Assembly: GCF_036964665.1 (NCBI RefSeq)
Contig: NZ_JBAMDA010000001.1
Span: forward strand, 1,054,001 to 1,118,000
From: Nitrobacter sp. NHB1
GTDB taxonomy: Bacteria; Pseudomonadota; Alphaproteobacteria; Rhizobiales; Xanthobacteraceae
DNA length: 64,000 nt
Reading direction: 5' to 3'
Positions within the stretch are counted from its first letter, which is position 1. Every line of letters begins with the position of its first letter. Below are positions 5,301 to 48,417 of this stretch, piece by piece. The notes under the pieces are model-generated. The model saw only the letters and a program-made list of their open reading frames with translations, had not been told where the DNA came from and searched no databases. A program made the position numbers and the translations under genes.

Positions 5301-6442
5301 GGCTTCGATGGCTTCTGCGGTTTGGCCGACTTCTCAGGTTTGACCGTCTTCTGTGGTTTAGCCGTCTTCTCCGACTTGGCTGTCTTCTCGAGCTTGGCCG
5401 TCTCGGGCTGCTTAGCCGCCTTGTCGGAATTGGCTGCCTCAGACTTGGCCGACTTCTCCTCGACGTTGACGCGGTGATCGCCGACCCCGAGATAGATCAG
5501 GATCGGCGCCGCGATGAAGATCGAGGTGTAAGTGCCGACGAGCACCACGCCGAACATCATCACCGCGGTGAAGCTGTGGATGGCCGGTCCGCCGAACAGC
5601 AGCAATGCCAGCAGCGCCAGCGTGACCGTGACGTGGGTGATGATCGAGCGCGACAAGGTCGAATTGATGGATTCGTTGAGCAGTTCCGGCATCGGCAGCT
5701 TCTTGTAGCGCCGCAGCATTTCGCGAATCCGGTCGTAGATGACGACGGTGTCGTTCAGCGAGTAGCCGAGAATGGTCAGAAGCGCCGCGATGCTGGTGAG
5801 GTCGAAGTCGACCTGCGAGATCGACATGAAGCCGATGGTCAGCACGATGTCATGGACGTTGGCGACCATGGCGCCGAGCGCGAATTGCCACTCGAACCGA
5901 AACCAAAGATAGATCAGGATGCCGAGAATCGCCAGCATCAGGCCGATCATGCCGTAGGCGAGCAATTCGCCGGACACGCGCGGTCCGACCACCTCGACGC
6001 GGCGATAGTTGACGCTGTCGCCCAGCGCGCCGCGCACCTTCTGTACCGCCACCTGCTGCGCGGCATCTCCGCCCGGCTGCTCGGCGACGCGAATCAGCAC
6101 TTCGGTCGGGCCGCCGAACTGCTGGATCTGGACGTCGCCAAGACCGAGCTTGTTCAGCGTCGCGCGCATCGTCGCGATGTCCACGTCGCCGGACTTCGCC
6201 TGCACCTCGAGCAGCGTGCCGCCCTTGAAATCGATGCCGAAATTCAGGCCGTGCGTGAAGAACAGCGTGATGGCGACGATCGACAGCACAGCGGAAATCG
6301 GAAAGCTGATGCGGCGGAAACGCGTGAAGTCGAAATGCGTATCGTCGGGAACGATCCGCAGCGACGGCAGCAGGCCGAAGCAACTGACGATGGTCAGCAC
6401 GACGATGAGGGCACCGAGCCCGAGTAAAATCCAGTGGGTCAC
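5297..6442 (-). CDS. secF: Protein translocase subunit SecF
   Basis: SecF works with SecD in the inner membrane, using the proton gradient to complete Sec-dependent export. The 381-aa product has an N-terminal membrane segment, the conserved FKGGT periplasmic motif (near residue 75), and the C-terminal RND-type membrane bundle including DTVVIYDRIRE. The last ~50 residues are an unusual Lys/Ala/Pro tail made of imperfect KTAKxEK and KxQKP repeats, extending beyond the usual family end (about 310-330 aa). It lies 16 bases after secD on the same strand. Confidence 0.96.
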   Translation of the reverse strand: MTHWILLGLGALIVVLTIVSCFGLLPSLRIVPDDTHFDFTRFRRISFPISAVLSIVAITLFFTHGLNFGIDFKGGTLLEVQAKSGDVDIATMRATLNKLGLGDVQIQQFGGPTEVLIRVAEQPGGDAAQQVAVQKVRGALGDSVNYRRVEVVGPRVSGELLAYGMIGLMLAILGILIYLWFRFEWQFALGAMVANVHDIVLTIGFMSISQVDFDLTSIAALLTILGYSLNDTVVIYDRIREMLRRYKKLPMPELLNESINSTLSRSIITHVTVTLALLALLLFGGPAIHSFTAVMMFGVVLVGTYTSIFIAAPILIYLGVGDHRVNVEEKSAKSEAANSDKAAKQPETAKLEKTAKSEKTAKPQKTVKPEKSAKPQKPSKP

Positions 6443-29912: not shown

Positions 29913-29988
29913 GAGCGCGTAGCTCAGGCGGTAGAGCACGTGACTTTTAATCATGGGGTCGTGGGTTCGAGTCCCACCGCGCTCACCA
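29913..29988 (+). tRNA. tRNA-Lys (anticodon TTT)
   Basis: The 76-base cloverleaf has acceptor arms gagcgcg/cgcgctc, anticodon loop cttttaa (TTT), T arm gtgggttcgagtcccac and an encoded CCA. Its 3' 51 bases form the left attachment repeat of the element that follows, so the gene is reconstituted after integration. Confidence 0.98.
29938..29988 (+). repeat. attL: 3' part of tRNA-Lys, 51-bp direct repeat
   Basis: The 51 bases from acgtgac to caccgcgctcacca are identical to 48367-48417. The repeat covers the anticodon stem-loop, variable loop, T arm and 3' acceptor of the tRNA, a classic tyrosine-integrase target. Confidence 0.95.
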
Positions 29989-30227: not shown

Positions 30228-30488
30228 ATGCCGAAATCGGCCAAAGCTAGCAAACCACCAAAAACCACTAAAACCTCGACCCACAAGGCGTATCGCGCAC
30301 CTGATGCCGGTGCGCTGCTCGTTAACCGCGCGCAGGTCGCGCGCCTCTTGTCCTGCTCACGATCCACAATCATCCGACTTGAGGAAGCTGGCAGGCTTCG
30401 TCCCGTAAAGCTCATACGCGCGCGAAACGGCGTCACCTTTTACCGCGCCGCCGAAGTGCGCGCTCTCGCGTCAGGGGGTGACGCATGA
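30228..30488 (+). CDS. AlpA/excisionase-like helix-turn-helix protein
   Basis: The 86-aa protein has a basic Lys/Thr N terminus and a MerR-type winged helix-turn-helix (LLVNRAQVARLLSCSRSTIIRLEEAGRLRPVK, residues ~30-60) followed by TFYRAAEV. This is the layout of AlpA/Xis proteins, which control integrase expression and excision in P4-like and PICI elements. It is preceded by GGAGGGAAAA and its stop overlaps the next start by four bases (ATGA). Direction of action is inferred from position next to attL. Confidence 0.75.
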   Translation: MPKSAKASKPPKTTKTSTHKAYRAPDAGALLVNRAQVARLLSCSRSTIIRLEEAGRLRPVKLIRARNGVTFYRAAEVRALASGGDA

Positions 30489-32794
30489 CACGGCGCAACA
30501 ACGAGACCGTCGAACGCGCCCCCACCCTTGACGATTTTGCAGGAAAGCGCCGGTGGGTTGCTTGGCGCGAGGAGCAGCGCAAAGGGTCCGAAAAGCTTAC
30601 AAAAGTCCCCTACGACCCCGTTAATGATAGAAAGGGCAGCTCGACCGATCCGTCGACATGGGGCACGCGAGAGCAAGCCGAGGCCGCTTGGCGTAACCAC
30701 CTAGACGACGGCTCCCGTGGTGGTGTTGGAATCGTCCTTGGCAAACTCAAGGACCGATCATGGTTGATGGGAATCGACCTCGACTCTTGCCTCGACCCGA
30801 AAACCGGAAAGATTGAATCGTGTGCGGCCAAGGTGCTTGATCGATTCAACACCTATGCCGAAGTCTCTCCTTCCGGGAAAGGCGTCAAGCTGTTCTTCCT
30901 CGTCGCACAGGAAGACGCCGACGCAGTCGCCGCTCTGTTTGAACGCAACGATCAGGGAAAATGGAAAGCACGAAAAGCATTCGTGGTAGACGCGCACCAC
31001 GAAATGGCGATTGATCGCGAGAGATATTACACCGTCACCGGCGAATGGCTGGAAGATTGGCCCGAGACGATAACCACAGTTAGCGTCGAAACTGTTCGAT
31101 GGTTTATCGAGGAGGCCGGACCAGAGTTTCTTGAGGCGAACGGCGTCACCACCTCTAACGCCAAGTTGACGGGCCGCGATCAGAGTGGTTCGGGCGTTGG
31201 TTTCGAATTCATGGGCGCGCGTAAGGCCGCAGGCGATTCCTATGAGGAAGCATGTACGGCCATTCTTGCCGACCGAGGTCGAGCAGGCGAATGGGCACGG
31301 CGCTCCGACTCCCGTCAATTGGAGAGAGCTTGGGGCAACAATAGCGCAGCAGCCCCACTCCATACATGGGACGACCCGGATTTGAGTTTGCTTGACGACC
31401 GCCGTGGCAAACTACCGTCCTTCCCTCTCGAAACGTTGCAATCAGAAAAGCTACGGAAATGGGCAAAGCGTGCTGCCATTGGAAGCGGCACCACGCTCGA
31501 ACATGTGATCGTGCCCTTCCTTGGAATCGCTTCCGGCTTGATTGGAGCCGCGCGTTGCGCGCGTCCGATACGCTCTTGGGTGGAGCCACTGACCTGTTGG
31601 ATTGCGCTCGTTGGCTATTCAGGATCGCGCAAGACACCGGGAATGATTGTATCACGACGCGCCCTCGACATTGTTGAAAGCGATCAGCGTGACTCAAACT
31701 TCGACCAAGAGCAGCAGCACAAGCAGAAACTTGCGATGGCGAAGCAGGCGCAAAAACATTGGGAAGAAGACGTTAAGGCAGCACATAAAGAGGGACGTAA
31801 GGCCCCGGTGCTGCCGAGTGAGGCAACCTACGACGAGACGTTCATAACGCCGCGCCTCTACGTCTCCGATGCAACCGTCGAAGCTCTAACTCTGCAATTG
31901 AAGGCACGACCGCAAGGTATGATCTTGTTTGTCGAGGAGTTGGCGCGCCTGTTTACGAACATGAGCCGTCACTCTCAAGGCTCTGATCAGGAATTTTGGT
32001 TGGAAGCTCACGACGGGCTTCCTTGGCGGCAAATACGCCTCGGGCGTTGCGCGCCTGATATTCCCCATCTGTTGATTGGGTTGATTGGAGGGTTGCAACC
32101 GGACAAATTGAAGCTGAGCTTCAAGGGGTCTGCTGACGGGATGAGCGCTCGCTTTCTGTATGCATGGCCGGAAGAGCCTCCCTATCGTGACCTTGAAGAC
32201 GTGATCGATCTTGTCGACCCGCAAATTGTAAAGGTGCTGAAAAGGCTGGCCTATCTCGACGACTTCCCCGAGGGGGATTTGAAACTTACCAAGCAGGCCC
32301 GCGATGAATTCAACGGGCTGCGGCACGAGGTCAGCGAAAAAATGAATGCTGTCTTCGGCCGCGAACGTGAGTGGTGGTCGAAGATACCCAAACACGTTCT
32401 CCGGCTTGCCGGAACATTGACCCTCCTGTGGTGGGCCTTCGAAGATAAACGCGGCCCGAAGTCGAGTGAGATACAAAGCGTCGATATCGAGAATGCTGCG
32501 AGCATGGTGCTTAACTTCTTCTGGCCGCACGCTTGCGCGGCGTTGCGACAGATTGGTCGCGATGAACAACATGCGGATGCGCGCAAGGTACTACAATGGT
32601 TGATCGCCACCGGGAAAGAACGAGTCCGTAATGAAGAGGTGCGGCGCAATCCGCTTGGGAAGTGTGATGCTGCCAACACGGATAAGGTAATGCAATTCCT
32701 GCGGCGCGCCGGTTGGTTGCGTCCATACAGCGAGAAAACCAAAGGTCGCTCCAAAAAAGGGTGGGACGTGAATCCGAAACTGCCAACAAGCTGA
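30485..32794 (+). CDS. Primase-polymerase / DUF3987 replication protein
   Basis: The 769-aa protein starts with a primase-polymerase (AEP-like) region: LMGIDLDSC (Asp98, Asp100) and AEVSPSGKGVK (residues ~125-135). The second half is DUF3987-like: a degenerate Walker A GYSGSRKT (377-384), then ILFVEELARLF as a possible Walker B around residue 480. Proteins of this kind initiate replication of phages, satellites and plasmids. It is coupled to the AlpA-like gene and followed immediately by the iterons at 32838-32971. The Walker A glycine-lysine pattern is atypical (SRK in place of SGK). Confidence 0.8.
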   Translation: MTRRNNETVERAPTLDDFAGKRRWVAWREEQRKGSEKLTKVPYDPVNDRKGSSTDPSTWGTREQAEAAWRNHLDDGSRGGVGIVLGKLKDRSWLMGIDLDSCLDPKTGKIESCAAKVLDRFNTYAEVSPSGKGVKLFFLVAQEDADAVAALFERNDQGKWKARKAFVVDAHHEMAIDRERYYTVTGEWLEDWPETITTVSVETVRWFIEEAGPEFLEANGVTTSNAKLTGRDQSGSGVGFEFMGARKAAGDSYEEACTAILADRGRAGEWARRSDSRQLERAWGNNSAAAPLHTWDDPDLSLLDDRRGKLPSFPLETLQSEKLRKWAKRAAIGSGTTLEHVIVPFLGIASGLIGAARCARPIRSWVEPLTCWIALVGYSGSRKTPGMIVSRRALDIVESDQRDSNFDQEQQHKQKLAMAKQAQKHWEEDVKAAHKEGRKAPVLPSEATYDETFITPRLYVSDATVEALTLQLKARPQGMILFVEELARLFTNMSRHSQGSDQEFWLEAHDGLPWRQIRLGRCAPDIPHLLIGLIGGLQPDKLKLSFKGSADGMSARFLYAWPEEPPYRDLEDVIDLVDPQIVKVLKRLAYLDDFPEGDLKLTKQARDEFNGLRHEVSEKMNAVFGREREWWSKIPKHVLRLAGTLTLLWWAFEDKRGPKSSEIQSVDIENAASMVLNFFWPHACAALRQIGRDEQHADARKVLQWLIATGKERVRNEEVRRNPLGKCDAANTDKVMQFLRRAGWLRPYSEKTKGRSKKGWDVNPKLPTS

Positions 32795-33706: not shown

Positions 33707-34168
33707 ATGCCTACAAGCAAAAGCAAAATTAAAGGCAAGAACACCGCTAGCAACGGTGTACGCTCAGCACGCTTGTATAAATCAAATGCAAGATCGCGCG
33801 TGACAAACGGCGCGTCGTTACTACCAAATGTCGACGGACGTACTTTTTGGGTTAGGCGTTATCGCGACCTCAATTCGCTGTTGCTGTCCGATCAGGGTGG
33901 CGAGGAGAACGCCTCCGAAGCAAGGCGAATGCTTGTAAGGCGCGCGGCCTGCTTAGCTGTTGAACTTGAACGGCGCGAGGCCGTGATCGCAGAAGCGGGC
34001 GAGGCTACTGACAACCAGCTAGAAGTGTATGGGCGCACCTCAAATACATTGCGGCGTCTACTCGAAAGCCTCGGGCTTGAACGCCGCGCTCGCGATATCA
34101 CGCCTAGCTTGGATCAATACATAGCGCAGAACTATCCGCACGAATCCGAAGAGGAGTCGGACGGATGA
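33707..34168 (+). CDS. Terminase small subunit-like protein
   Basis: The 153-aa protein has a basic N terminus (SKSKIKGKN, then RSARLYKSNARSR), a helical middle (ASEARRMLVRRAACLAVELERREAV) and an acidic C terminus. Its position immediately before the large terminase, with a four-base ATGA overlap, and its helical layout suggest TerS, which selects DNA for packaging. No DNA-binding motif is certain, so the call is by context. Confidence 0.6.
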   Translation: MPTSKSKIKGKNTASNGVRSARLYKSNARSRVTNGASLLPNVDGRTFWVRRYRDLNSLLLSDQGGEENASEARRMLVRRAACLAVELERREAVIAEAGEATDNQLEVYGRTSNTLRRLLESLGLERRARDITPSLDQYIAQNYPHESEEESDG

Positions 34169-35790
34169 TTGAACGCGTCCGCATGTCATCTCGACAAGGT
34201 AGCCAAGCACAAAGAGCCTTGACGATCCTCGATGCGATGCGTGATCCCGCGTTGTTCAAACCGTTCTTTAAGAATCCAAGATCATGGAAAGCATGGCTGG
34301 TAGTCCTCGCAGCGATCTTTGCTCTGCCCATGACAACCGAGCAACTCGCGATCTATCAACAACTCACTGGGCGCACAGAAGCACAGAACAAGATCGCTAA
34401 GGAAGTTTGGTTATGCATTGGCAGACGTGGCGGCAAAAGCAGAATCCTTGCACTGATCGCGACATGGTTAGCCGCATTTCACGATTACAAACCGTATCTC
34501 GCACCCGGCGAAAAGGGTGTGGTGCAGATCATTGCCTGTGATAGGAGGCAGGCGAAAGTCGCTCTGCGATACGTGAAAGCCTTCATTTCGCAAACGCCGA
34601 TGTTGGCGCGCATGGTTGAGAGCGAGACTGCTGACAGCATTTCGCTGACCAACGACATTGTCATTGAAGTCGTCACCAATTCCTACAGGTCCTGCCGTGG
34701 ATTCACGCTGGTCGCGGCGCTATGCGACGAAATTTCCTTTTGGCAGGGCGAGGGCTGCGCAAATCCAGATACTGAAATTCTCGCTGCACTCCGACCCGCA
34801 ATGGCAACGATTCCGAACGCCATGCTGCTGTGTGCTTCGAGTCCCTACGCCAAGCGCGGCGCATTGTACGAGGCACATAAGGCTCACTTCGGCAAGGATC
34901 ATGATTCCGTTCTCGTCGTGCAGGCCGATACCGCAACAATCAATCCGATTGTCGACGCGAAGATCATAGCTGATGCCTATGAGGCTGATCCCGCTTCGGC
35001 AGCAGCCGAATTTGGCGCGCAATTCAGAAATGATATCGAATCGTTTGTCTCCATCGAGGCTGTGAATGCTTGTGTCTCACGAGGAATCTATGAACGTCCT
35101 TACGATCCGGCCAAATCATATCTCGCATTCGTCGATCCGTCAGGTGGCAGCGCGGATTCCTTCTGTCTCGCTGTCGGGCACCATGATTACGCGCGACAAA
35201 CCGTCGTGATCGATTGTCTTCGCGAAGTCCAACCGCCGTTCTCACCGGAAAGCGTCACTGAGAAGTTTTGCAGAACGTTGAAAGAGTATCGTGTCTCCGT
35301 CGTAACTGGCGATAGATACGGCGGTGAATGGCCTCGCGAGCAGTTTAGCAAGCTTGGCATTCGCTACGAACCGTCGGCGCTACCGAAATCCGAATTGTAT
35401 CGCGATCTACTGCCATTGATTAACTCGGCTCGTGTCGAACTGCTCGATCACGCCAAGCTCGTCAACCAACTTTGCGGACTGGAAAGACGTACCTCACGCG
35501 GCGGTAGAGATAGCATCGATCATAGTCCCGGCGCACATGACGACGTCGCAAACGTTGTCGCCGGACTGAGTTCGCTCGCCAATCAACATAACGGATATGA
35601 TTGCAGCTACCGGTGGGTTGACGGTGACAGCGACGACTCCGCTTCCGATGCCCGCGAACAGCGCCGCCAACGCATTCTCGCGATCATGAACGACGAGATC
35701 GACGGCGACAGTACTGGGCCAGCACACCCGACACTGAGCGACGAGGAATTGCGTCGGATCGCCAGCCCGATCAGGTTGGGAACATGGTGA
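34165..35790 (+). CDS. Phage terminase large subunit
   Basis: The 541-aa protein is a complete packaging motor: Walker A GRRGGKSR (86-93), Walker B VAALCDE (184-189), coupling motif LLCASSPYAK (221-230), and an RNase H-fold nuclease with acidic residues at VDPSGG (324), TGDRYGGEW (383) and HDDVANVVAG (459-460). It translocates DNA into a capsid and cuts it. Satellites usually carry only TerS and borrow the host phage TerL, so an intact TerL without portal or capsid is notable. A remnant of a related C terminus is at 39432-39582. Confidence 0.88.
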   Translation: MIERVRMSSRQGSQAQRALTILDAMRDPALFKPFFKNPRSWKAWLVVLAAIFALPMTTEQLAIYQQLTGRTEAQNKIAKEVWLCIGRRGGKSRILALIATWLAAFHDYKPYLAPGEKGVVQIIACDRRQAKVALRYVKAFISQTPMLARMVESETADSISLTNDIVIEVVTNSYRSCRGFTLVAALCDEISFWQGEGCANPDTEILAALRPAMATIPNAMLLCASSPYAKRGALYEAHKAHFGKDHDSVLVVQADTATINPIVDAKIIADAYEADPASAAAEFGAQFRNDIESFVSIEAVNACVSRGIYERPYDPAKSYLAFVDPSGGSADSFCLAVGHHDYARQTVVIDCLREVQPPFSPESVTEKFCRTLKEYRVSVVTGDRYGGEWPREQFSKLGIRYEPSALPKSELYRDLLPLINSARVELLDHAKLVNQLCGLERRTSRGGRDSIDHSPGAHDDVANVVAGLSSLANQHNGYDCSYRWVDGDSDDSASDAREQRRQRILAIMNDEIDGDSTGPAHPTLSDEELRRIASPIRLGTW

Positions 35791-35820: not shown

Positions 35821-36351
35821 ATGAAACAAGGGATCAGATACTATCGCGACGGCGTCGAAATCGACGAGCACGAAGCCCTTTCAAATGGGATACTGCGCGA
35901 TGGCGTAACTTTGTCAGTACCAACCTCGATGCGAGACTCCTCGTCGTTAGGTCCGTTGCAGCGCGCCGTAGCGGCCGATGCTGATCGGCGCGCCCGTGTC
36001 CGCGACGCGTTCGGTGGTCAAGCAGGTCACCGCCCTGGATATGCGTTGGCGACGAGCGATCAGGCGGCACAGGATGCAAAGGCAAGGGCTTATTCCGCTT
36101 ATGATAGCGAGCGCGAAAATGCGTGGCGCAGCCCACGCCAAAACGGCGGTCCGACCTTTCCGGAGGATCAGCGGAGCAATTGGTCAACGCGCGACGGCAT
36201 CGTTGTTAAAGACACTGGGCCAGGGCCGCGAACTCAACGTCGTCTCGAGACGGTAAACGCCAACGACGCGACCCGCGATCACTCACGTGTTATGCAGGAA
36301 GTCTATGGCGCTTACGACCACGAACTCGCTCAGAGGTGGAGGCACAAATGA
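35821..36351 (+). CDS. Hypothetical phage-type protein
   Basis: The 176-aa protein has a GIRYYRDGVEIDEHEAL N terminus and two similar segments, AYSAYDSERENAWR and VYGAYDHELAQRWR, one near the middle and one at the end. It is polar, with no membrane segment. It follows terL by 30 bases and its stop overlaps the next start (ATGA), so it belongs to the packaging operon. Function unknown. Confidence 0.65.
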   Translation: MKQGIRYYRDGVEIDEHEALSNGILRDGVTLSVPTSMRDSSSLGPLQRAVAADADRRARVRDAFGGQAGHRPGYALATSDQAAQDAKARAYSAYDSERENAWRSPRQNGGPTFPEDQRSNWSTRDGIVVKDTGPGPRTQRRLETVNANDATRDHSRVMQEVYGAYDHELAQRWRHK

Positions 36352-37211
36352 ACGAGCGCCCAGAACCGACAAGCGAAGAATGCTCGCTTGAGCAACGCAT
36401 TTCGGTTGCGCTCAATGATGAAAACGCCAGCAGTGCGGCGTGGACTAAATTGATTGACGAAGTCGAGGCGGCCGCCGCTGCCGCCGACGCGACCGCGACG
36501 AATCTCCGATCTGAATCACTTGATCTTGTTTCGATGCCCGATATCGGCGACGTGCATCATCGCATCGTCAATGCCGAGATGACCCGTGACCGACTGAGTA
36601 ACATAATGCCAAAGTTGCGGGACAAGCTAAGCGCAGCCTTGTACGCCGAGCGATGCGAGCGCTGGTATGCAGATTGCGAGTGCGTCCAAGCACGTCTCGA
36701 CGAAGCCATGTCAATGTTTCGGGGGTACCCCGACCATGCGCAGGCGATTGCCGACACGTTCGCGCTCGCAGCACAGGTCGATACGGAAGTTGATCGCATC
36801 AACGCCTCCGCGCCCGACGGGGTGCACACGCGGCTCAAGCCCGTCGAACTCCAAGCGCGCGGTCTTGATCGCTTTGATCGGAATCATCCCTCGTTGGCTG
36901 CTACCGTTGAACTGGGCTGCTGGGACGATTCCAGCCGCAAGCTTTGGCCATTACGGCACTCCAATTCGCTTGCGGTTGCGGTTGCCGCGAGCATGATCGT
37001 TCCTTATCACCCGGGCGGATCATGGGCTGACCCGGACGTTCAAGCGCTGCGAAGAGCAGAAATCGAGAAGCAGCAAGGGGAGATTGCCGCTTATCACGAA
37101 CGGGCAGCAAGCGATCAGGAGGAGCGGCTCAATCGCGAGGAGCGCGAACGCTTTGTTGGCAGAGCGGGAGCGGATAAGGCGTCGATGCCAGCCTTAAAAC
37201 GGACCGTTTGA
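36348..37211 (+). CDS. Hypothetical coiled-coil protein of the packaging operon
   Basis: The 287-aa acidic protein has long helical stretches (residues ~15-130, and an E/Q/R-rich helix at ~225-260), and a middle region with HPSLAATVELGCWDDSSRKLWP. It is translationally coupled to the preceding gene through ATGA. It is the last gene of the terS-terL series. It might be a scaffold-like or structural relic, but no family is recognised. Confidence 0.6.
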   Translation: MNERPEPTSEECSLEQRISVALNDENASSAAWTKLIDEVEAAAAAADATATNLRSESLDLVSMPDIGDVHHRIVNAEMTRDRLSNIMPKLRDKLSAALYAERCERWYADCECVQARLDEAMSMFRGYPDHAQAIADTFALAAQVDTEVDRINASAPDGVHTRLKPVELQARGLDRFDRNHPSLAATVELGCWDDSSRKLWPLRHSNSLAVAVAASMIVPYHPGGSWADPDVQALRRAEIEKQQGEIAAYHERAASDQEERLNREERERFVGRAGADKASMPALKRTV

Positions 37212-37592
37212 ACGCCACCAGCGGTGCACGCGCCTTTATCACTATCATTCGGAATGGAGTGTTTATTGGAGCCGCGAAGGGAATCGAACCTTCGCACTCA
37301 GCTTGGGAACGCCACGCGCTTCGCATGGAGGTCATCGGCGAAGATTCCCGGCGAGAAAGTCGTGAACAAAATCAATGCGCTTGATTGGACGCCTCATGGT
37401 CGCAGCTCGAAAGGATGCGATTCGCGATCTTCATGAGATGCCGGACGTCAGGCCCGTCTGGGTCCGCCAAAATTGAGGGGATTCATGAGACTCTAAAGAG
37501 AGCGGTTGATTGCGGAAAAAGGCGAACAGGCTAATGAATGGACGCACGATCATCCCGCCGTCGTGATTGCACTGTGAATAATTCAGAAACGA
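37212..37592. other. Non-coding stretch with a tRNA relic
   Basis: About 380 bases with no convincing gene. It contains the tRNA-Gly-like fragment described separately and precedes the anti-phage deaminase gene; a regulatory RNA for that gene could lie in this or the following 230 bases, but I cannot demonstrate one. Confidence 0.4.
37267..37315 (-). pseudogene. 3' fragment of a tRNA-Gly(CCC)-like gene
   Basis: On the minus strand the sequence reads gttcccaagc (anticodon loop with CCC), then a T arm gaaggttcgattccctt and an end ggctcca. The phrase ttcccaagctga with its T arm matches tRNA-Gly(CCC). The 5' half is missing, one T-stem pair is an A-C mismatch and the acceptor strand is one base short, so it is not functional. 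It may be the relic of another element's attachment site. Confidence 0.55.
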
Positions 37593-37775
37593 TTAGCTCT
37601 TCACAGCTAAATTGGGCTTACTAGAACAATCGTTCCTATGATTCCCGTGTGCCGAGCGTGCTTGGCTTTTTTCGTCGTCCAATTCCTGGATACGGCGCAC
37701 AGCCTGAACAACGTCTCTTTCGAGCCATCCTGGCTCTAATTTCATACTATCCATGAAGCGTCTCCCTGTCGTCAC
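37593..37775 (-). CDS. Small hypothetical protein, divergent from avcD
   Basis: A 60-codon frame (possible start also at 37754 or 37745) encodes MKLEPGWLERDVVQAVRRIQELDDEK and a polar tail. The EPGWLER opening is seen in small proteins of rhizobial phages and islands (from memory). It ends in the intergenic stretch and is divergent from the deaminase gene 50 bases away. Function unknown. Confidence 0.45.
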   Translation of the reverse strand: MTTGRRFMDSMKLEPGWLERDVVQAVRRIQELDDEKSQARSAHGNHRNDCSSKPNLAVKS

Positions 37776-37825
37776 AGAAATGGAACTTCGCGTTGACCGT
37801 GGCGCATACGATCTAGGATGCGATA

Positions 37826-39394
37826 GTGAATCAAATTAGCGAGACTAGGTCTAGTTCCAACTTCGAAGAAGACCTTCCCTTTGATGACCATCCTGAACTG
37901 ATCTTGGGCTTAGTTGGCCCCGTTGGCGTCGACTTAAAAGCTGTAACCGATGAACTAATCGATGCGCTACGGGAGGTCGGATACGGTTCACAGGTATTTC
38001 GGATCACAGACCTCATGCGCGAAGTTAAGACAGGTCTTCCGCTTGATGCTACTGGATACATTGAGTCGTACCAACAGCGGATTTCTTACGCAAATAAAGT
38101 AAGAGAGCAATTGCGTCGGAACGATGCATTAGCGATTCTCTCCATTAGCGCGATCAGGCAGTTCAGAGAGGCGACAGGCGGTAGCGTTGAGCGGCCTATT
38201 TCGAAGCAAGCCTACATAATCCGGCAGTTCAAACGACCCGAAGAAATCAAACTGATGCGGGCAGTCTACGGGCGTCAGTTCATTCAGGTATCTGCGTACG
38301 AACCGCAATTTTATCGCAAGCGTCGTATCGCCGTTAAGGAAACTCAATCCAAAAAGCGGCTCGGCTCAACCGCGGACGCTGAAAATGATGCCAACTCGCT
38401 TGTCAAGCGAGACGAAATGGAGGGTGACACAAGACACGGCCAAAATGTCCGCGACGCTTTCCCGCTCGCGGACGTGTTTGTTGAATCCCCTGATCGCAAG
38501 TCATGCAAGGAAACCGTTGGCCGTTTTATTCGCGCGCTTTTTGGCGACAACCATGTATCTCCGACCCACGATGAGTATGGGATGTATCTTGCAAAGACAG
38601 CATCACTAAGATCGTCGGCACTGACACGACAAGTCGGCGCGGCAATTTTTCGCCCAACCGGCGAGATAGTTTCGCTCGGGTGCAACGAGGTACCAAAAGC
38701 GAACGGCGGGACATATTGGAGCGGCGATCATGTTGACCACAGAGACTTCGTTGTCGGGCGGGATCCAAACGACGAAAAGAAGCGCGAACTTGTGACGGAT
38801 TTCATCAATCGCATGTTCAATGCCGGCCTTCTTTCGAAAGATCAATGTGGAAATAGAGACCCCCTTACACTAGCGGATGAATGGTTGGGTGACGACTCGG
38901 CTTACGGCTTGAAGGACTCGAAAGTGATGGACCTTATTGAGTTCGGGCGCGACATCCATGCGGAAATGTCTGCCATAACAGACGCCGCGCGTAACGGATT
39001 GCCGATTGCGGGGGCGACGTTATACTGCACGACGTTTCCCTGCCATTTATGCGCAAAACACATCGTTGCGGCTGGAATAAAGCGCGTTGTGTCAATCGAG
39101 CCTTATCCGAAAAGTTACGCGGAGGAGCTGCATTCTGATTCGATTGAGGTTGATGGCGATGGCGATGGCCATCGCGTAAACTTCCAACGATTCCTAGGAA
39201 TCTCACCTTATCGTTATAGAGAGCTTTTCGAGAAGGGAAAACGCAAGTACTCGACCGGCGAAGCACAGCAATGGAATCGCGGCGAGCGGAAACCAATGAT
39301 TGACGTCATTTACCCGTCATACTTTCAGGCCGAGATGCATGTCGTTAGCCTGCTTGAGCCGCGACTTGCCGCGCTGAATAAGTGCACCCGATAG
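37826..39394 (+). CDS. avcD: AvcD/DCD-type anti-phage dCTP deaminase
   Basis: The 522-aa protein has a P-loop kinase-like N-terminal domain (GLVGPVGVDLKAV, residues 28-40) and a C-terminal zinc-dependent deaminase domain with HAE (378-380) and PCHLC (405-409). It also carries the family pieces SSALTRQVGAAIF and SLGCNEVPKANGGTYW. This two-domain layout and length match the AvcD/DCD defence proteins, which convert dCTP/dCMP to deoxyuridine nucleotides when a phage shuts down transcription, starving it of dCTP. In Vibrio a neighbouring RNA (AvcI) holds the enzyme inactive. The start is a GTG at 37826. It is island cargo, probably directed against competing phages. Confidence 0.88.
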   Translation: MNQISETRSSSNFEEDLPFDDHPELILGLVGPVGVDLKAVTDELIDALREVGYGSQVFRITDLMREVKTGLPLDATGYIESYQQRISYANKVREQLRRNDALAILSISAIRQFREATGGSVERPISKQAYIIRQFKRPEEIKLMRAVYGRQFIQVSAYEPQFYRKRRIAVKETQSKKRLGSTADAENDANSLVKRDEMEGDTRHGQNVRDAFPLADVFVESPDRKSCKETVGRFIRALFGDNHVSPTHDEYGMYLAKTASLRSSALTRQVGAAIFRPTGEIVSLGCNEVPKANGGTYWSGDHVDHRDFVVGRDPNDEKKRELVTDFINRMFNAGLLSKDQCGNRDPLTLADEWLGDDSAYGLKDSKVMDLIEFGRDIHAEMSAITDAARNGLPIAGATLYCTTFPCHLCAKHIVAAGIKRVVSIEPYPKSYAEELHSDSIEVDGDGDGHRVNFQRFLGISPYRYRELFEKGKRKYSTGEAQQWNRGERKPMIDVIYPSYFQAEMHVVSLLEPRLAALNKCTR

Positions 39395-41744: not shown

Positions 41745-43679
41745 ATGCACATTGCGATTGACCGTCAAGCGCAATGCATGGGATCAACTTACGCGAGTGG
41801 GCGATTTCGGATAACCAGGAATTTCGAACTTCGTTCACTCGCTGTTGGGCGATTAGGAAGTCTTTTGTTTTTTGCAAGTATTATGGTGGCAAGGCTCATG
41901 GCGGACGACGAAAACGATCAATCCGCGGAATCGCATGTAACACCCGAAAGTCAAAAGAGAGCTTCTGGTGTTTTTCAACGTATCAGAAAACGCGCTAACA
42001 CGCTTTCCTATTTACGGCCGTTCGGTCAAATTATCATCGTCGCCATTGCGTGCCTCGTTCTGGCGTTTGCTCTGCTCTGGCTCTTAGACAAAATATTCTA
42101 CTACTATCTCGCGCGGACTTATGTTGATCAAATTGCGCAGACGTTTGACCTCAACCCGCATCTGGCCAACGCCCTCGTATTGGCAACATTTTTCATGGCG
42201 GTCATTTTCGGCCGATTGATTTGGTCATTGTCGAAGACGACACGAAGAATAGGTGTTGCGGGATTTGCTGTCCTCCTGATTGGACATTCGATTCTGCTTT
42301 GGTATGGCGCGCGCGGCGAGCTTATAGACCGCGCAGGTAATACTATCAAATGCTATGTGCTTAGCCGTGACGGCAAGGTGACGTACGGCGAGCATGCGGG
42401 AATTGATCCTGCAACAGGTCGGGAGTGCAGGCCCGTCAAACCGAAGCTCGTGGAGCGGTTGCAAGAGTATGCTGCGGGAAAACGCGCTCAGAAAATTGAC
42501 GATCCCAATCCTGTTTTTTTTGACCCACGCAGCGGTGAGCCGATAGTCTGGTATTACAAATCCAAAAACGGTCTAATCGAACTATACGATCTCATGGGCT
42601 TTGAGCCTAACACGGGCGAAGAGTTGCTCCCTGTCACGAAACAGATAGCACAGGATTGGAAAAATCAGTCGCGACGTGGTCCTAGGCTGATAAATGCCCC
42701 TGAGAAATATGTGTTCTTTGATCCGGTCAGTGGCAATTCACAAGCGTGGTACTGGCGCAACGCCGACGGAAGTTACGAGTTTTACGACGCTCCGGGCTTT
42801 CAGCCTCAAACAGGCGAAAAACTAAATGTCGTAACGCGAGATGTCGTTGACGATTGGAAGAGGCACATCGCCCCCGCACATGTCCCTCAGCGAGTTGATC
42901 CGACCAAATACCCGTTCTTCGATCTTACCACGGGAGTTGCACAGGTCTGGTACTGGCGAGCTAAGGATGGGTCCTATGAATTCTATGACGCACCCGGATT
43001 CGAACCGGAAACAGGAGAAAAGCTATCGATTGTCACCCGAGAGGTAGTATCCAAATGGAAAGCTAGCCTTGTACCGCCTGTGACGGCGCAGTCGAGTGCG
43101 CCGGCGGCCGGTCCGTCACCAGCGAACCCTTCGGTGGCAAGCTCAGGCGATCTCGACATCGAGCTTCGGCAGAAGACTGCAATATTTCTGGTGAATTTGT
43201 ATGCTGGCGTGTCTGGCCCGAATAACAAAGTTTTAAAGGAGGCTTCCCGCAATTACGCGGAGCGGGTCGAATATTTTGGTAAAACCTACACACGCGAACA
43301 GGTGTTGGTGGAATTGCAGCGTTCCGATGAGAGATGGCCGATACGATCTTACCGGATGCGAGCAGACAGCTTGGCAATCGATTGCGACAAAGACGCTATG
43401 ACTTGCACCGCGACCGGCTTGTTGGATTTCGATTGCAGGAGTCCTGAAAGAAGCCAGCGTTCTTCGGGAGCAGCTACCTTCGGCTATCTTCTAAAATACT
43501 CTTCGCCAAAAGAGCCGCCGGTAATCGTAGAAGAGAGTGGAGAAGTGAAGGCGCGCCGCATCGAGCCGCTTGCATTTAATGCCGATCCTCAGCAGGTCGT
43601 TGGGGGACAATTGCCACAGGATCAGGAGGCGATCTTACGAGCCATTCTTTCCGGGATGTTCGGTCACATTGGTCATTAA
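41745..43679 (+). CDS. Membrane protein with three tandem WYW/GFxPxTGE repeats
   Basis: The protein has up to 644 aa (a shorter start at 41898 is equally possible). It has three membrane helices (about 95-117, 141-162, 169-188), then three tandem ~55-residue repeats at ~252-307, 318-373 and 386-440. Each unit reads roughly yxFFDpxtGxxxxWYwrxxdGsyEfYDxpGFxPxTGExLxxVTrxvxxxWK. A degenerate fourth precedes them (DPATGRECRPV). A Pro/Ser linker leads to a C-terminal ~170-residue domain (IFLVNLYAGVSGPNNKVLKEA, YAERVEYFGKTYTREQVL). I recognise no named family. Confidence 0.7.
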   Translation: MHIAIDRQAQCMGSTYASGRFRITRNFELRSLAVGRLGSLLFFASIMVARLMADDENDQSAESHVTPESQKRASGVFQRIRKRANTLSYLRPFGQIIIVAIACLVLAFALLWLLDKIFYYYLARTYVDQIAQTFDLNPHLANALVLATFFMAVIFGRLIWSLSKTTRRIGVAGFAVLLIGHSILLWYGARGELIDRAGNTIKCYVLSRDGKVTYGEHAGIDPATGRECRPVKPKLVERLQEYAAGKRAQKIDDPNPVFFDPRSGEPIVWYYKSKNGLIELYDLMGFEPNTGEELLPVTKQIAQDWKNQSRRGPRLINAPEKYVFFDPVSGNSQAWYWRNADGSYEFYDAPGFQPQTGEKLNVVTRDVVDDWKRHIAPAHVPQRVDPTKYPFFDLTTGVAQVWYWRAKDGSYEFYDAPGFEPETGEKLSIVTREVVSKWKASLVPPVTAQSSAPAAGPSPANPSVASSGDLDIELRQKTAIFLVNLYAGVSGPNNKVLKEASRNYAERVEYFGKTYTREQVLVELQRSDERWPIRSYRMRADSLAIDCDKDAMTCTATGLLDFDCRSPERSQRSSGAATFGYLLKYSSPKEPPVIVEESGEVKARRIEPLAFNADPQQVVGGQLPQDQEAILRAILSGMFGHIGH

Positions 43680-44667: not shown

Positions 44668-46080
44668 TTACAGCGGCAGTTCTGGTTCGACAGGGGTCGC
44701 AGTCAAAGCTTCCTGCGCTGTTCGAACTCTCCTTTCGGCTTCGGAAAACACCTCATCAGGATTGTTGCCGGCAAATGAGGTGCGAATAATGATCTGATCT
44801 AACTCTTCTTTCGCAAGCACTAGAACGCCCAATTTCTCGGCTTGTTCAAGGTCGGCTTGTAGCTCCCCACGCGGCAACGTGGAAACCATAACGGGCAAAA
44901 GCTTGACATGTCCATTGTTGGATTGATCGAGCCGTTCCCGAACCTTCGAATAGCGGGCAACGAGTTTCGGCAGCTTATTGTCCGCTCTCAACAATCCGGT
45001 CGTGCATTCGAGGATAGCGATCTGGCCCTGTGGAGTAGTTAGGATCAAGTCCGCAAAATCCTGAGTTCGTGCCGTCAAACCCATTTGCACCGTACCAAAT
45101 CCGAGCATCCAAAATAGCCAAGCCACCGCGATCTCAAAATCTCGTGCGTCGTGCCCTCTTGAATGTGGACGGGAAAGGAATGTTTTGAGGATGGCTAGCC
45201 CGCTATCGAACGACTCTATAATTTCCCGTCGGGAGTTCTGGGATGTTGTGGGATCGGATATATACCAGTGAGTCTGTGCGACGCCTTTGTAGATGGCGTA
45301 ACAATGAAGGATCGCGGCTTTGCTAACTGGTAGATCGAAAGTACCGATCTGCATGTCATCGGTTTGCTTCCAACTGAACTCGTTACCCGTCAAAACTCCA
45401 CGATTGATTTTTACTTGGTTAATCTCGCGGTATCCTAAAGAAGCTCCCAAGACATCTAGCGTGTTTGCTAGGCGAATAACGACGTGAGCCGTTTGACCTA
45501 CAATTTTCGAATTGTCGCCATCGAATCCCATGACGGCGGCCCCAATCACCTCGATGGTAATTGAGTCAGTAAATAATCCGCCGAGTCCGTACTCAGAAAA
45601 CAACTCTTGCATGCTATCGTGTGGAACGGCCGCGCTTCTCAACTCCCAATCCAACACAGAAGGGCCGGCGCTCAATATCTGCTTGTCTCCGGTCAACCGG
45701 AGCACGTTCACTCTCGATTGAGACTGCAAAGCCAAGGGATGAAGCGGGGTGTACGAAGCCTTGTGTTTTGGGGGGAACGTGAGTTCGCCCTGCGGTGTAC
45801 TAACGGTTCGATTTCCTATGTCGGTAACCATATCTCGATACGACTTCCCTAAGTCCGACAGCTTGAAGTGCCCAGCGCGCACATTCTCCGATTTGAACAT
45901 CTTGAACGACATTTTTGAGTGTGCAGTGTGGAGCCAGATTATGCCTTGAACGATCACAAACTGCCCGGCGTGCTTTACTGCAACGTAAGCGAACGAGTTA
46001 TTTGCATAACCCGACTCCCAAGGAGCAATGGCCTGATAAAAATCGTTAATGTGCCTCGAACTGACGGGGTCGAATGTCAT
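44668..46080 (-). CDS. Putative restriction-endonuclease-fold protein (ECT variant)
   Basis: The 470-aa protein has an unrecognised N-terminal ~300 residues and a C-terminal ~130-residue PD-(D/E)xK-like domain. Visible are a helix DFEIAVAWLFWMLGF (314-328), the acidic turn DFADLILTTPQ (341-351), and ILECTTG (356-362), where the usual ExK lysine is replaced by Thr, followed by NKLPKLVARYSKVRERL. This resembles Mrr-like nucleases with a permuted or degenerate active site. Position next to the integrase in the cargo end of the island fits a defence effector. Nuclease activity is inferred. Confidence 0.6.
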   Translation of the reverse strand: MTFDPVSSRHINDFYQAIAPWESGYANNSFAYVAVKHAGQFVIVQGIIWLHTAHSKMSFKMFKSENVRAGHFKLSDLGKSYRDMVTDIGNRTVSTPQGELTFPPKHKASYTPLHPLALQSQSRVNVLRLTGDKQILSAGPSVLDWELRSAAVPHDSMQELFSEYGLGGLFTDSITIEVIGAAVMGFDGDNSKIVGQTAHVVIRLANTLDVLGASLGYREINQVKINRGVLTGNEFSWKQTDDMQIGTFDLPVSKAAILHCYAIYKGVAQTHWYISDPTTSQNSRREIIESFDSGLAILKTFLSRPHSRGHDARDFEIAVAWLFWMLGFGTVQMGLTARTQDFADLILTTPQGQIAILECTTGLLRADNKLPKLVARYSKVRERLDQSNNGHVKLLPVMVSTLPRGELQADLEQAEKLGVLVLAKEELDQIIIRTSFAGNNPDEVFSEAERRVRTAQEALTATPVEPELPL

Positions 46081-46747: not shown

Positions 46748-48193
46748 TCAACGTCGCAACGCTATCACGTTGTCTTCGGGCGGGTTGACGATCCGGTCGA
46801 CGAGATCAGCAAGACGCTGCAATGCGTCCGCCTTCTCTGCGTCGTAGGAATGACGATCATAAACGCCTTCAACGCCTTTAATGGAATGGCCTAGTACGCG
46901 CTCCGAAACGTGAGGCAAGACGCCAGCCTTAGCCATGAGCGACTTTGCCGTGCGCCGTAGATCGTGCAACGTCCACCACTCCTGTTTTAACTGGCGTGTT
47001 AGTTCTTTCTTGGCCTCGCGGCCCTTGGCGGCGGCATTGGCTTCCAGCAGCGTCCTGACTTTCGCGACAAATATCAGCTTGGCAGAATCGTTGCGTGCCT
47101 CGGCTATCTTTTGCAGTTCATTCAGCATCAGCAGATCGAACGCTTCCTTGGCCTTGCTAAAGGAGTTGAACGCTGGCGGGGCTGGTGGTGTCTTGTCCGT
47201 CGACTTGCGCCGCCGTCCAGGCGTTCGGCCCGGAAACACATGAGGGTTGTCTTCAAGCCGTGGCTGCGCAGCAATGATATCCTGCACTACTTGTGGCAAG
47301 GTAAGGCTTCCGGCATTGGACTTCTCACGCGCTTCGGTCGGAATCGTCCACACACCATTCGCGAGATTGGCCCATTGCATGGTGGCCACTTTTTCACGAC
47401 GCTGCGCCGTCAATAGCAGCACTCTCACCATTGCACCGAAAACCGTCTTGTCAGTCATGCTATCGCAGGCCGTCCATAATGCTTTGATTTCGTCGTAATT
47501 GAGAATGCGTTTGCGTTTGTGATCGGTGCTATTGCTTCGGTGCATCCCTCGCGCCACCGGTGACGTGTAGTCGTCATTGCGAGTCGTATACCAGTTCATG
47601 GTCTTCCGAATAATCGCGAGCACGACATCGGCCTGACGCGCGCCGTGCTTGTCTTGGATTTGATCGAGCAAGTCGGCAACCTCGCTACGTTTGATATCAC
47701 GAAACGGCTTATCCCCCCATTTCGGATAAACACACTTGGCCAGCAACCGCTCAATGTCAGCTTTCGTGCGCAGCCCCTTGGTTTCGACGTGGCGCTTGAC
47801 GAAGTTCTCGGCCACTTCTTTGAAGCTTGGCCCTCTTGCCTTGGCTTCTGCGAGCGCTTTTTCTTCCACCCGCATTTTTTCTTCCGCGAGCGCCTTGGCT
47901 TCCGACAGCGCTTTTTTGGGATCGGCTAGAAACAGACGCGCTTTATCCCTCGCCTCTTTCACTTTCAGGATCGGGTAAAGGCCCAGAGACTTGGAGGTGA
48001 CGATTGTAATCGGCTTGCCATCCTCCTTGCGCGTTGACCGAGTGTAATACTGCGCAACCCAAGTCTTCCGGCCCTTGGCACTGACTCGCAGCACCAATCC
48101 CGGCACATGTTTGTCGAAGTGGTTTTGGAATTGCTGGTCCGTGGGTGCTTTGAGTTTCGCCACACCCTCGTCAGTGAGCTTCTTTTGCTCCAT
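46748..48193 (-). CDS. int: Tyrosine recombinase integrase (P4 type)
   Basis: The 481-aa protein has a P4-type N-terminal arm-binding domain (DKHVPGLVLRVSAKGRKTW), a core-binding SAM-like domain, and a catalytic domain with Arg in AQRREKVATMQW, HDLRRT, and H...Y in GHSIKGVEGVYDRHSY. It integrates the element at tRNA-Lys, as shown by the 51-bp repeats, and lies 173 bases from attR. An extra ~60-residue segment rich in Lys and Ala (about 365-425) separates the catalytic motifs. Confidence 0.95.
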   Translation of the reverse strand: MEQKKLTDEGVAKLKAPTDQQFQNHFDKHVPGLVLRVSAKGRKTWVAQYYTRSTRKEDGKPITIVTSKSLGLYPILKVKEARDKARLFLADPKKALSEAKALAEEKMRVEEKALAEAKARGPSFKEVAENFVKRHVETKGLRTKADIERLLAKCVYPKWGDKPFRDIKRSEVADLLDQIQDKHGARQADVVLAIIRKTMNWYTTRNDDYTSPVARGMHRSNSTDHKRKRILNYDEIKALWTACDSMTDKTVFGAMVRVLLLTAQRREKVATMQWANLANGVWTIPTEAREKSNAGSLTLPQVVQDIIAAQPRLEDNPHVFPGRTPGRRRKSTDKTPPAPPAFNSFSKAKEAFDLLMLNELQKIAEARNDSAKLIFVAKVRTLLEANAAAKGREAKKELTRQLKQEWWTLHDLRRTAKSLMAKAGVLPHVSERVLGHSIKGVEGVYDRHSYDAEKADALQRLADLVDRIVNPPEDNVIALRR

Positions 48194-48228: not shown

Positions 48229-48366
48229 TAAGGGGCCTGTTATGGGTTGGCTAGGGGTGACTAGGGAAGAAGCGTTTTGAAGCGTATGACGCTCGTATAT
48301 ATTTGATAATAATCAACTTATGGCGTTTGACTTGATGCGGGCTGGATACCGTCGAATCGGCGTAAT

Positions 48367-48417
48367 ACGTGACTTTTAATCATGGGGTCGTGGGTTCGAG
48401 TCCCACCGCGCTCACCA
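48367..48417 (+). repeat. attR: second copy of the tRNA-Lys 3' end
   Basis: Identical over 51 bases to 29938-29988. It lacks the tRNA 5' half, so it is not a second tRNA gene. It marks the right end of the element. Confidence 0.95.

Follow-up and report, generated by a model that had tools for sequence, protein, structure and literature searches.

A conserved divergent small gene adjoins an AvcD-type deaminase in the cargo slot of a satellite-like element of Nitrobacter

Introduction

How is a nucleotide-depleting enzyme carried by a mobile element kept silent until a phage arrives? According to published work, AvcD is inhibited by an RNA, which disappears once the phage shuts off host transcription (PMC10511110), and the AvcI locus lies next to avcD or upstream of it (PMC12409362, PMC9455884). 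The window analysed here, that is the whole stretch of 64,000 nucleotides from Nitrobacter sp. NHB1 (contig NZ_JBAMDA010000001.1, positions 1,054,001 to 1,118,000), raises this question with a deaminase gene at positions 37826 to 39394 (plus strand). A sequence-only reading had presented this gene as an AvcD carried by a satellite and the 614 bases before it (37212 to 37825) as containing little that codes and as a place that could encode an AvcI-like RNA. We report here that the conserved part of these 614 bases is a divergent protein gene.

Results

The deaminase belongs to the AvcD family

The product of 37826-39394 (+), 522 aa long and starting with GTG, is recognised over nearly its full length (residues 24-472) by NF041025, with 453.7 bits for a cut-off of 400, as well as by the PADLOC dCTPase model (520.5 bits) and PHROG 9198, whereas the housekeeping-type ComEB model gives 49.9 bits for a cut-off of 219.45. 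It is therefore a member of the AvcD family and not a housekeeping ComE/dCMP deaminase, as had been proposed. The family is sporadic, being found above the NF041025 cut-off in 8 of 101 genomes (own genome counted). The zinc deaminase motifs HAE and PCxxC are present at residues 378-380 and 405-409, and a structure model built from 42 aligned rows (pLDDT 89.7) matches the human, T4, Streptococcus and chlorovirus dCMP or dCMP/dCTP deaminases in Foldseek, which bears out the deaminase C-domain announced from the letters. HAE and PCHxC occur in 87 of 87 relatives, which were selected by a motif that itself includes PCH.

The "P-loop" N-domain proposed earlier stands as a fold and falls as a motif. 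Indeed, the modelled domain matches an adenylate-kinase-like protein and has a kinase-like P-loop fold by Foldseek (3lw7, E 1.3e-5; 3h0k, E 4.2e-5), but its N-terminal loop reads GPVGVDL, which is not a canonical Walker A. The loop reads GAIGSGVKT in one E. coli member and GAVGSGIKS in one Klebsiella member, and a search of the first 60 residues from the core turned up the canonical GxxxxGK[ST] in 0 of 87 relatives, those of E. coli and Klebsiella being among them; it is uncertain that this motif defines membership of NF041025. Judging from its family, the enzyme should act on dCTP/dCMP and protect against phage.

The gene occupies the cargo slot of a satellite-like element

An exact direct repeat of 51 bp links the 3' part of tRNA-Lys (attL, 29938-29988 (+), within the tRNA at 29913-29988) to a second copy at 48367-48417 (+) (attR, with an Rfam tRNA fragment at 48360-48409), and these repeats thus bound an integrated element of 18.4 kb. 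Within it lie a primase/helicase-like DUF3987 protein (30485-32794 (+); PF13148, phrog_2373, phrog_13901), the large terminase subunit TerL (34165-35790 (+); phrog_2 at 6e-20, and kin) and, at the far end, a tyrosine integrase (46748-48193 (-); PF00589, PF13356, PF22022, phrog_1). The gene directly before TerL (33707-34168 (+)) is a small-terminase candidate by position only; it had no family match in the family-library scans, and a homologue adjoins TerL in several kin loci. Two backbone proteins follow TerL, one of 176 aa (35821-36351 (+)) and one of 291 aa (36336-37211 (+)). Among the ten element proteins scanned against Pfam and PHROGs, the smaller ORFs being outside the scan, no capsid, portal or tail family was found. 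Kin of TerL were found in 19 viral contigs and in 6 of the 61 genomes searched (own counted), and five matches, all weak, in the phage record collection.

A sister element in the same genus (genome G001, locus L207) shares this block, with identities of 47% for a 153-aa protein, 77% for TerL, 44% for the 176-aa and 83% for the 291-aa protein. The latter is the last gene common to both elements, and the DNA similarity of the window to the sister element stops near 37153. Directly after the 291-aa gene, the sister carries a type III-like restriction-modification pair (L207:2237-8307), composed of a type III-like DNA methyltransferase (975 aa, 428.8 bits) and a ResIII-like protein of 1047 aa. The same slot thus holds a deaminase cassette here and type III-like restriction in the sister, and this comparison of two elements points to a cargo slot for defence. 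With its att repeat, integrase, primase, TerL and defence cargo slot, the element appears satellite-like, in agreement with the sequence-only reading.

The dCMP deaminases of T4-like phages match the C-domain (phrog_174), and the enzyme could accordingly be imagined to serve the nucleotide pools of the element's own replication instead of defence. The presence of restriction genes instead of the deaminase in the sister's slot, the N-domain and length shared with the anti-phage family, and the scores given above, with ComEB far below and the anti-phage family above its cut-off, make this explanation highly improbable.

Two other element proteins were noted in passing. The 470-aa product of 44668-46080 (-) has a weak match (E 0.009) to PD-(D/E)xK-like CARF/Csx1 models and could be a second defence gene. 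The 644-aa product of 41745-43679 (+) shows, by eye, hydrophobic N-terminal stretches and repeats of the FFDPxSGxxxxWYW type, and it matched no Pfam family.

A divergent 53-aa gene lies directly upstream of the deaminase

Looking at the 614 bases before the deaminase, we found a divergent gene of 53 codons at 37593-37754 (-), whose product begins MDSMKLEPGWL and which we call the GWL family; with an alternative GTG start upstream, the gene would reach to 37775. The two start codons are separated by 71 nt (37755-37825) in which both genes have a plausible ribosome-binding site, AGGA at 37815-37818 (+), seven bases before the deaminase start, and GGGAGA at 37761-37766 (-) ahead of the 53-aa gene. 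The same region contains ATCTAGGATG, common to the window and to locus L038.

Among the best 80 of 113 relatives, the closest deaminases are those of Bradyrhizobium L038 (about 85-86%) and L039 (74%) and of Pseudorhodoplanes L040 (67%). DNA homology to L038 begins at 37593, the final base of the 53-aa gene's stop codon. The DNA match of L039 starts only at 37874 and that of L040 only at 38003, so that in these two loci only the protein sequence reveals the small gene; the motif KLEPGWLxRDV is present in the 53-aa gene and in frames of L038, L039 and L040, at the same place and in the same orientation. Between the window and L038, codon differences at positions 1, 2 and 3 number 9, 12 and 25 (dN 0.25, dS 1.19). 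For this pair an opposite-strand frame scores 149, compared with 162 for the gene frame, but it contains stops; in the comparisons of L038 with L039 and L040, dS is saturated and uninformative. The small protein is 59% identical between the window and L038 and the deaminase 86%. No credible family was found for the 53-aa protein in Pfam or NCBIfam and none in PHROGs, and its structure model is a single helix spanning residues 10-39, with good confidence up to about residue 30 and a low-confidence tail. The segment 37593-37754 is thus a conserved protein gene with a coding signal, and the description of the 614 bases as nearly devoid of coding content has to be abandoned.

The remainder of the gap (37212-37592) has no DNA match to L038, L039 or L040 and its plus strand folds no better than shuffled sequence (z +0.66). 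In it, just upstream of the cassette, the segment 37267-37295 (-) resembles the 3' end of a tRNA (Rfam tRNA-Sec, 16.7 bits, below cut-off); it has no other match in its own genome at up to 2 mismatches and is thus perhaps the scar of an insertion in another host.

Divergent small genes recur beside related deaminases

The genome relatives were, as above, the best 80 of 113. Loci were selected by the motif [TS]TFPCH in a frame of at least 350 aa, which missed 13 of 97 loci. The counts below refer to 87 loci, non-redundant at 97%; L068, L082, L084 and L103 (incomplete or with too little upstream DNA) were left out, as were the duplicates or fragments L005, L006, L012, L135, L136, L138 and L167. 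Divergent frames with the GWL motif were found in 12 of 92 deaminase loci (three being identical copies), at a distance of 57-151 nt ahead of the deaminase core, for 1.3 matches on both strands expected by chance from the flanks. The other deaminase clades have different small frames in the equivalent divergent position. Altogether, 53 of the 87 loci have a small divergent frame for which a homologue exists in at least one other locus. In control zones of the same size the count was 14 of 87 upstream on the same strand, 12 and 12 downstream, and 4 and 7 at 1.8-2.4 kb upstream, these far zones having fewer ORFs (125 and 129, compared with 169-209) as some loci are short. Since so few small ORFs are shared in the far zones, general synteny does not explain the recurrence. 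When the comparison was restricted to deaminase clusters below 70% identity, the ratio was 32 of 69 clusters against 6, 8, 6, 2 and 5 in the control zones, a comparison whose Fisher tests assume an independence of loci that does not hold.

The coding signal extends beyond the pair formed by the window and L038. In 21 of 22 disjoint pairs (the exception being L065/L101), the small-gene frame scored highest among the six frames, with differences of 571, 445 and 792 by codon position. Iterated profiles raised the number of loci with a partner to 64 of 87, the profiles having been built from the same loci in which members were then counted, and left 23 of 87 in which none was recognised. With these profiles no match at E<=0.01 was obtained among the 810 ORFs of the control zones; a separate GWL profile of eight members gave one control ORF at E 0.0029, and L044 (E 4.2) and L060 (E 0.031) fitted the GWL profile poorly. 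A small divergent partner thus accompanies about two thirds of all deaminase loci examined.

Thirteen further loci with enough upstream DNA (11 missed by the selection motif, plus L082 and L084) were searched with the profiles. They are mostly distant, 32-43% identical; a partner is clear in L072 (7.8e-10) and doubtful in L084 (0.037), and no member of a partner family was found in 11 of the 13, meaning that the partner families belong to the nearer alphaproteobacterial relatives. In six E. coli and Klebsiella records (L177, L180, L213-L216), the deaminase is immediately preceded by an ORF of some 60 aa; this ORF is co-directional and looks unrelated, is annotated as a hypothetical protein in five of the six, and is present in the sixth as an unannotated ORF. 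This ORF ends in tryptophan in three of the six records. On a Pararhizobium plasmid, the divergent small gene is likewise annotated as a hypothetical protein.

That the GWL protein is a common generic small protein was considered and rejected, the strict DNA motif occurring in 1 of 397 genomes of the order, at this locus alone. With a profile of four GWL proteins, 43 of the 149 genomes of the family had a match at E<=1; those below 0.001 were the locus of the window, two places in genome G137 and one in G170, the latter (3.8e-4) inside a frame of 683 aa. A match in G014 (0.0069) adjoins the L009 deaminase. The strict motif was found in three viral contigs, one of which is a Pseudorhodoplanes prophage, the other two matches lying in frames that look like chance. 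The variant PGWL.RQ gave four viral matches, none resembling such a small ORF, and tblastn searches with permissive E limits, using one small protein against plasmids and the prophage protein against phages and plasmids, returned matches at chance level only. A Caballeronia match was met as well.

The small genes start mostly 57-130 nt from the deaminase core, and this spacing, together with the divergent layout and the 71 nt between the starts in the window, is what one would expect if the small protein were a repressor of deaminase transcription acting at a shared promoter region. The predicted 53-aa protein is, as said above, a single helix with a low-confidence tail, it matches no DNA-binding family in Pfam, NCBIfam or PHROGs, and sequences specific to each clade would be expected of a protein partner and less of a repressor. 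We thus hold a promoter regulator to be quite unlikely.

An RNA could overlap the small gene

Rfam gave no family at cut-off in the upstream region. Over 37593-37825, all but 5 of 200 shuffles fold less well than the plus strand (z -2.15), so that an RNA could overlap the partner gene, and a terminator-like hairpin with a T run is present at 37651-37666 (+). It is therefore conceivable that an AvcI-like RNA from this segment is the true inhibitor, the small ORF being secondary or overlapping, and the position would agree with that of AvcI, which adjoins or precedes avcD (PMC12409362, PMC9455884). Against this proposal stand the conservation at the protein level, with an excess of third-position differences in several clades, the silence of Rfam, the minus-strand fold over the same region (z -0.58), and the number of terminator-like sites, which is 2 compared with 0.7 (sd 0.9) in shuffles. 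Altogether, we consider that an RNA inhibitor is unlikely. As the sole content of the gap, an RNA antitoxin was discarded: Rfam, folding and comparison give no support to it as a conserved feature, overlap with the small gene being possible. A gap that serves chiefly as the site of such an RNA is thus not supported, its conserved part being the divergent protein gene.

Partner families track the deaminase phylogeny

When mapped on a tree of the 87 deaminases, the ten partner families need 9 changes, which is the minimum, for a mean of 37.0 after shuffling (0 of 200 shuffles as low), the 32 rows with no family being excluded from this count. The GWL group alone needs three changes when L044 and L060 are counted in. 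The partner families follow the deaminase tree, and the clades cross host families.

The genome of the window has a second deaminase (L002, C1:1136941-1138278; 82725-84302 (-) in the numbering of the window), which lies outside the element. Being only 43% identical, it does not result from a recent duplication within the genome. Its partner is of a different family (DQFIE), common to two further loci, as expected for insulated pairs.

Lone partner homologues are found in phages

The Pseudorhodoplanes genome with a GWL-paired deaminase also encodes a lone GWL protein (L166:4956-5087; profile E 1.5e-7, and 3.4e-11 with a later profile) in a prophage-like region. By eye, this region contains a primase and a DNA methylase; no deaminase is present in the 14 kb read, and the viral collection includes the same prophage (L171). 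For a second partner family, RLARRM, 2 of 11 stretches were confirmed in a scan; they correspond to two phage contigs (L218 and L219, near 6001-6078) in which the core TADRLARRMGG lies inside larger proteins, with no deaminase in the stretch examined. These few lone homologues of two partner families allow, and do not show, a possible role in counter-defence.

They would also suit a small protein acting as a sensor or activator that links the deaminase to a phage signal, since such a sensor could mimic or meet the homologues present in phage contigs that lack a deaminase; the fast evolution of the small protein (59% against 86% for the deaminase, window and L038) points the same way. Against a sensor, AvcD is activated by loss of an inhibitor (PMC10511110); we regard this proposal as decidedly unlikely.

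Discussion

The presence of a conserved divergent neighbour gene suggests that RNA may not be the sole means of controlling the deaminase and that a protein may take part. The preferred reading, which we hold to be evenly poised between right and wrong, is that the cassette would be a two-gene anti-phage module carried as satellite cargo, in which the 53-aa protein holds the deaminase inactive as a labile antitoxin. Judging from conservation, coding signal and co-inheritance, the 53-aa protein is a dedicated and fast-evolving partner. It would keep the deaminase inactive until a phage shuts down host gene expression, at which point the labile partner would be lost and the deaminase set free. 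The latter, if it acts as its family does, would convert dCTP/dCMP into dUTP/dUMP, so that phage DNA synthesis would stall, and the satellite would benefit from a host shielded against competing phages.

Some points count against an antitoxin. A divergent layout is unusual in protein toxin-antitoxin operons. Further points are the 23 of 87 loci with no recognised partner, the 11 of 13 further loci in which no family member was found, the co-directional and unrelated-looking ORF of the six E. coli and Klebsiella records, and the published inhibitor of AvcD, which is an RNA (PMC10511110).

How does the cassette compare with known systems? In type II toxin-antitoxin systems, both genes lie in one operon and a protein neutralises the toxin. 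The cassette resembles them by a small, fast-evolving protein gene co-inherited with its effector and differs from them by its divergent genes, neutralisation here being an inferred role. As for the element, PICI, cfPICI and P4-like satellites combine tRNA integration, an integrase, a primase, a packaging gene and defence cargo. The element shares these traits, and no virion family was recognised among its ten scanned proteins; unlike them it carries TerL and has kin in viral contigs and relatives, the likeness being drawn from gene content. With AvcID of Vibrio, a type III toxin-antitoxin (PMC10511110), the cassette has in common the same named deaminase function and an adjoining small locus, here a putative inhibitor, a likeness that rests on NF041025, the NCBI family for such enzymes, the Vibrio protein itself being outside the alignment. 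It differs in that the conserved neighbour is here a divergent protein-coding gene. The NF041025 and PADLOC dCTPase models cover the enzyme alone and not the partner. In a limited literature search, with the founding reports beyond reach, we found no paper on a protein partner for these deaminases, which is a weak negative.

A wider proposal is more tentative and, in our opinion, rather improbable: that AvcD-type deaminases of the Alphaproteobacteria are controlled by fast-diverging divergent small proteins, one family per clade, and that phages acquired the partners, or the core motifs in them, for counter-defence.

As published, control of these enzymes lies with the RNA antitoxin studied in Vibrio; a protein partner, if true, would be a second mode of control. 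It could then explain how two deaminases of this kind coexist in one genome. The unit has two genes and would be simple to move into laboratory strains, and the partner families point to proteins that phages may encode to counter the system. Finally, a nucleotide-depletion system would be added to the known cargo of satellite-like elements.
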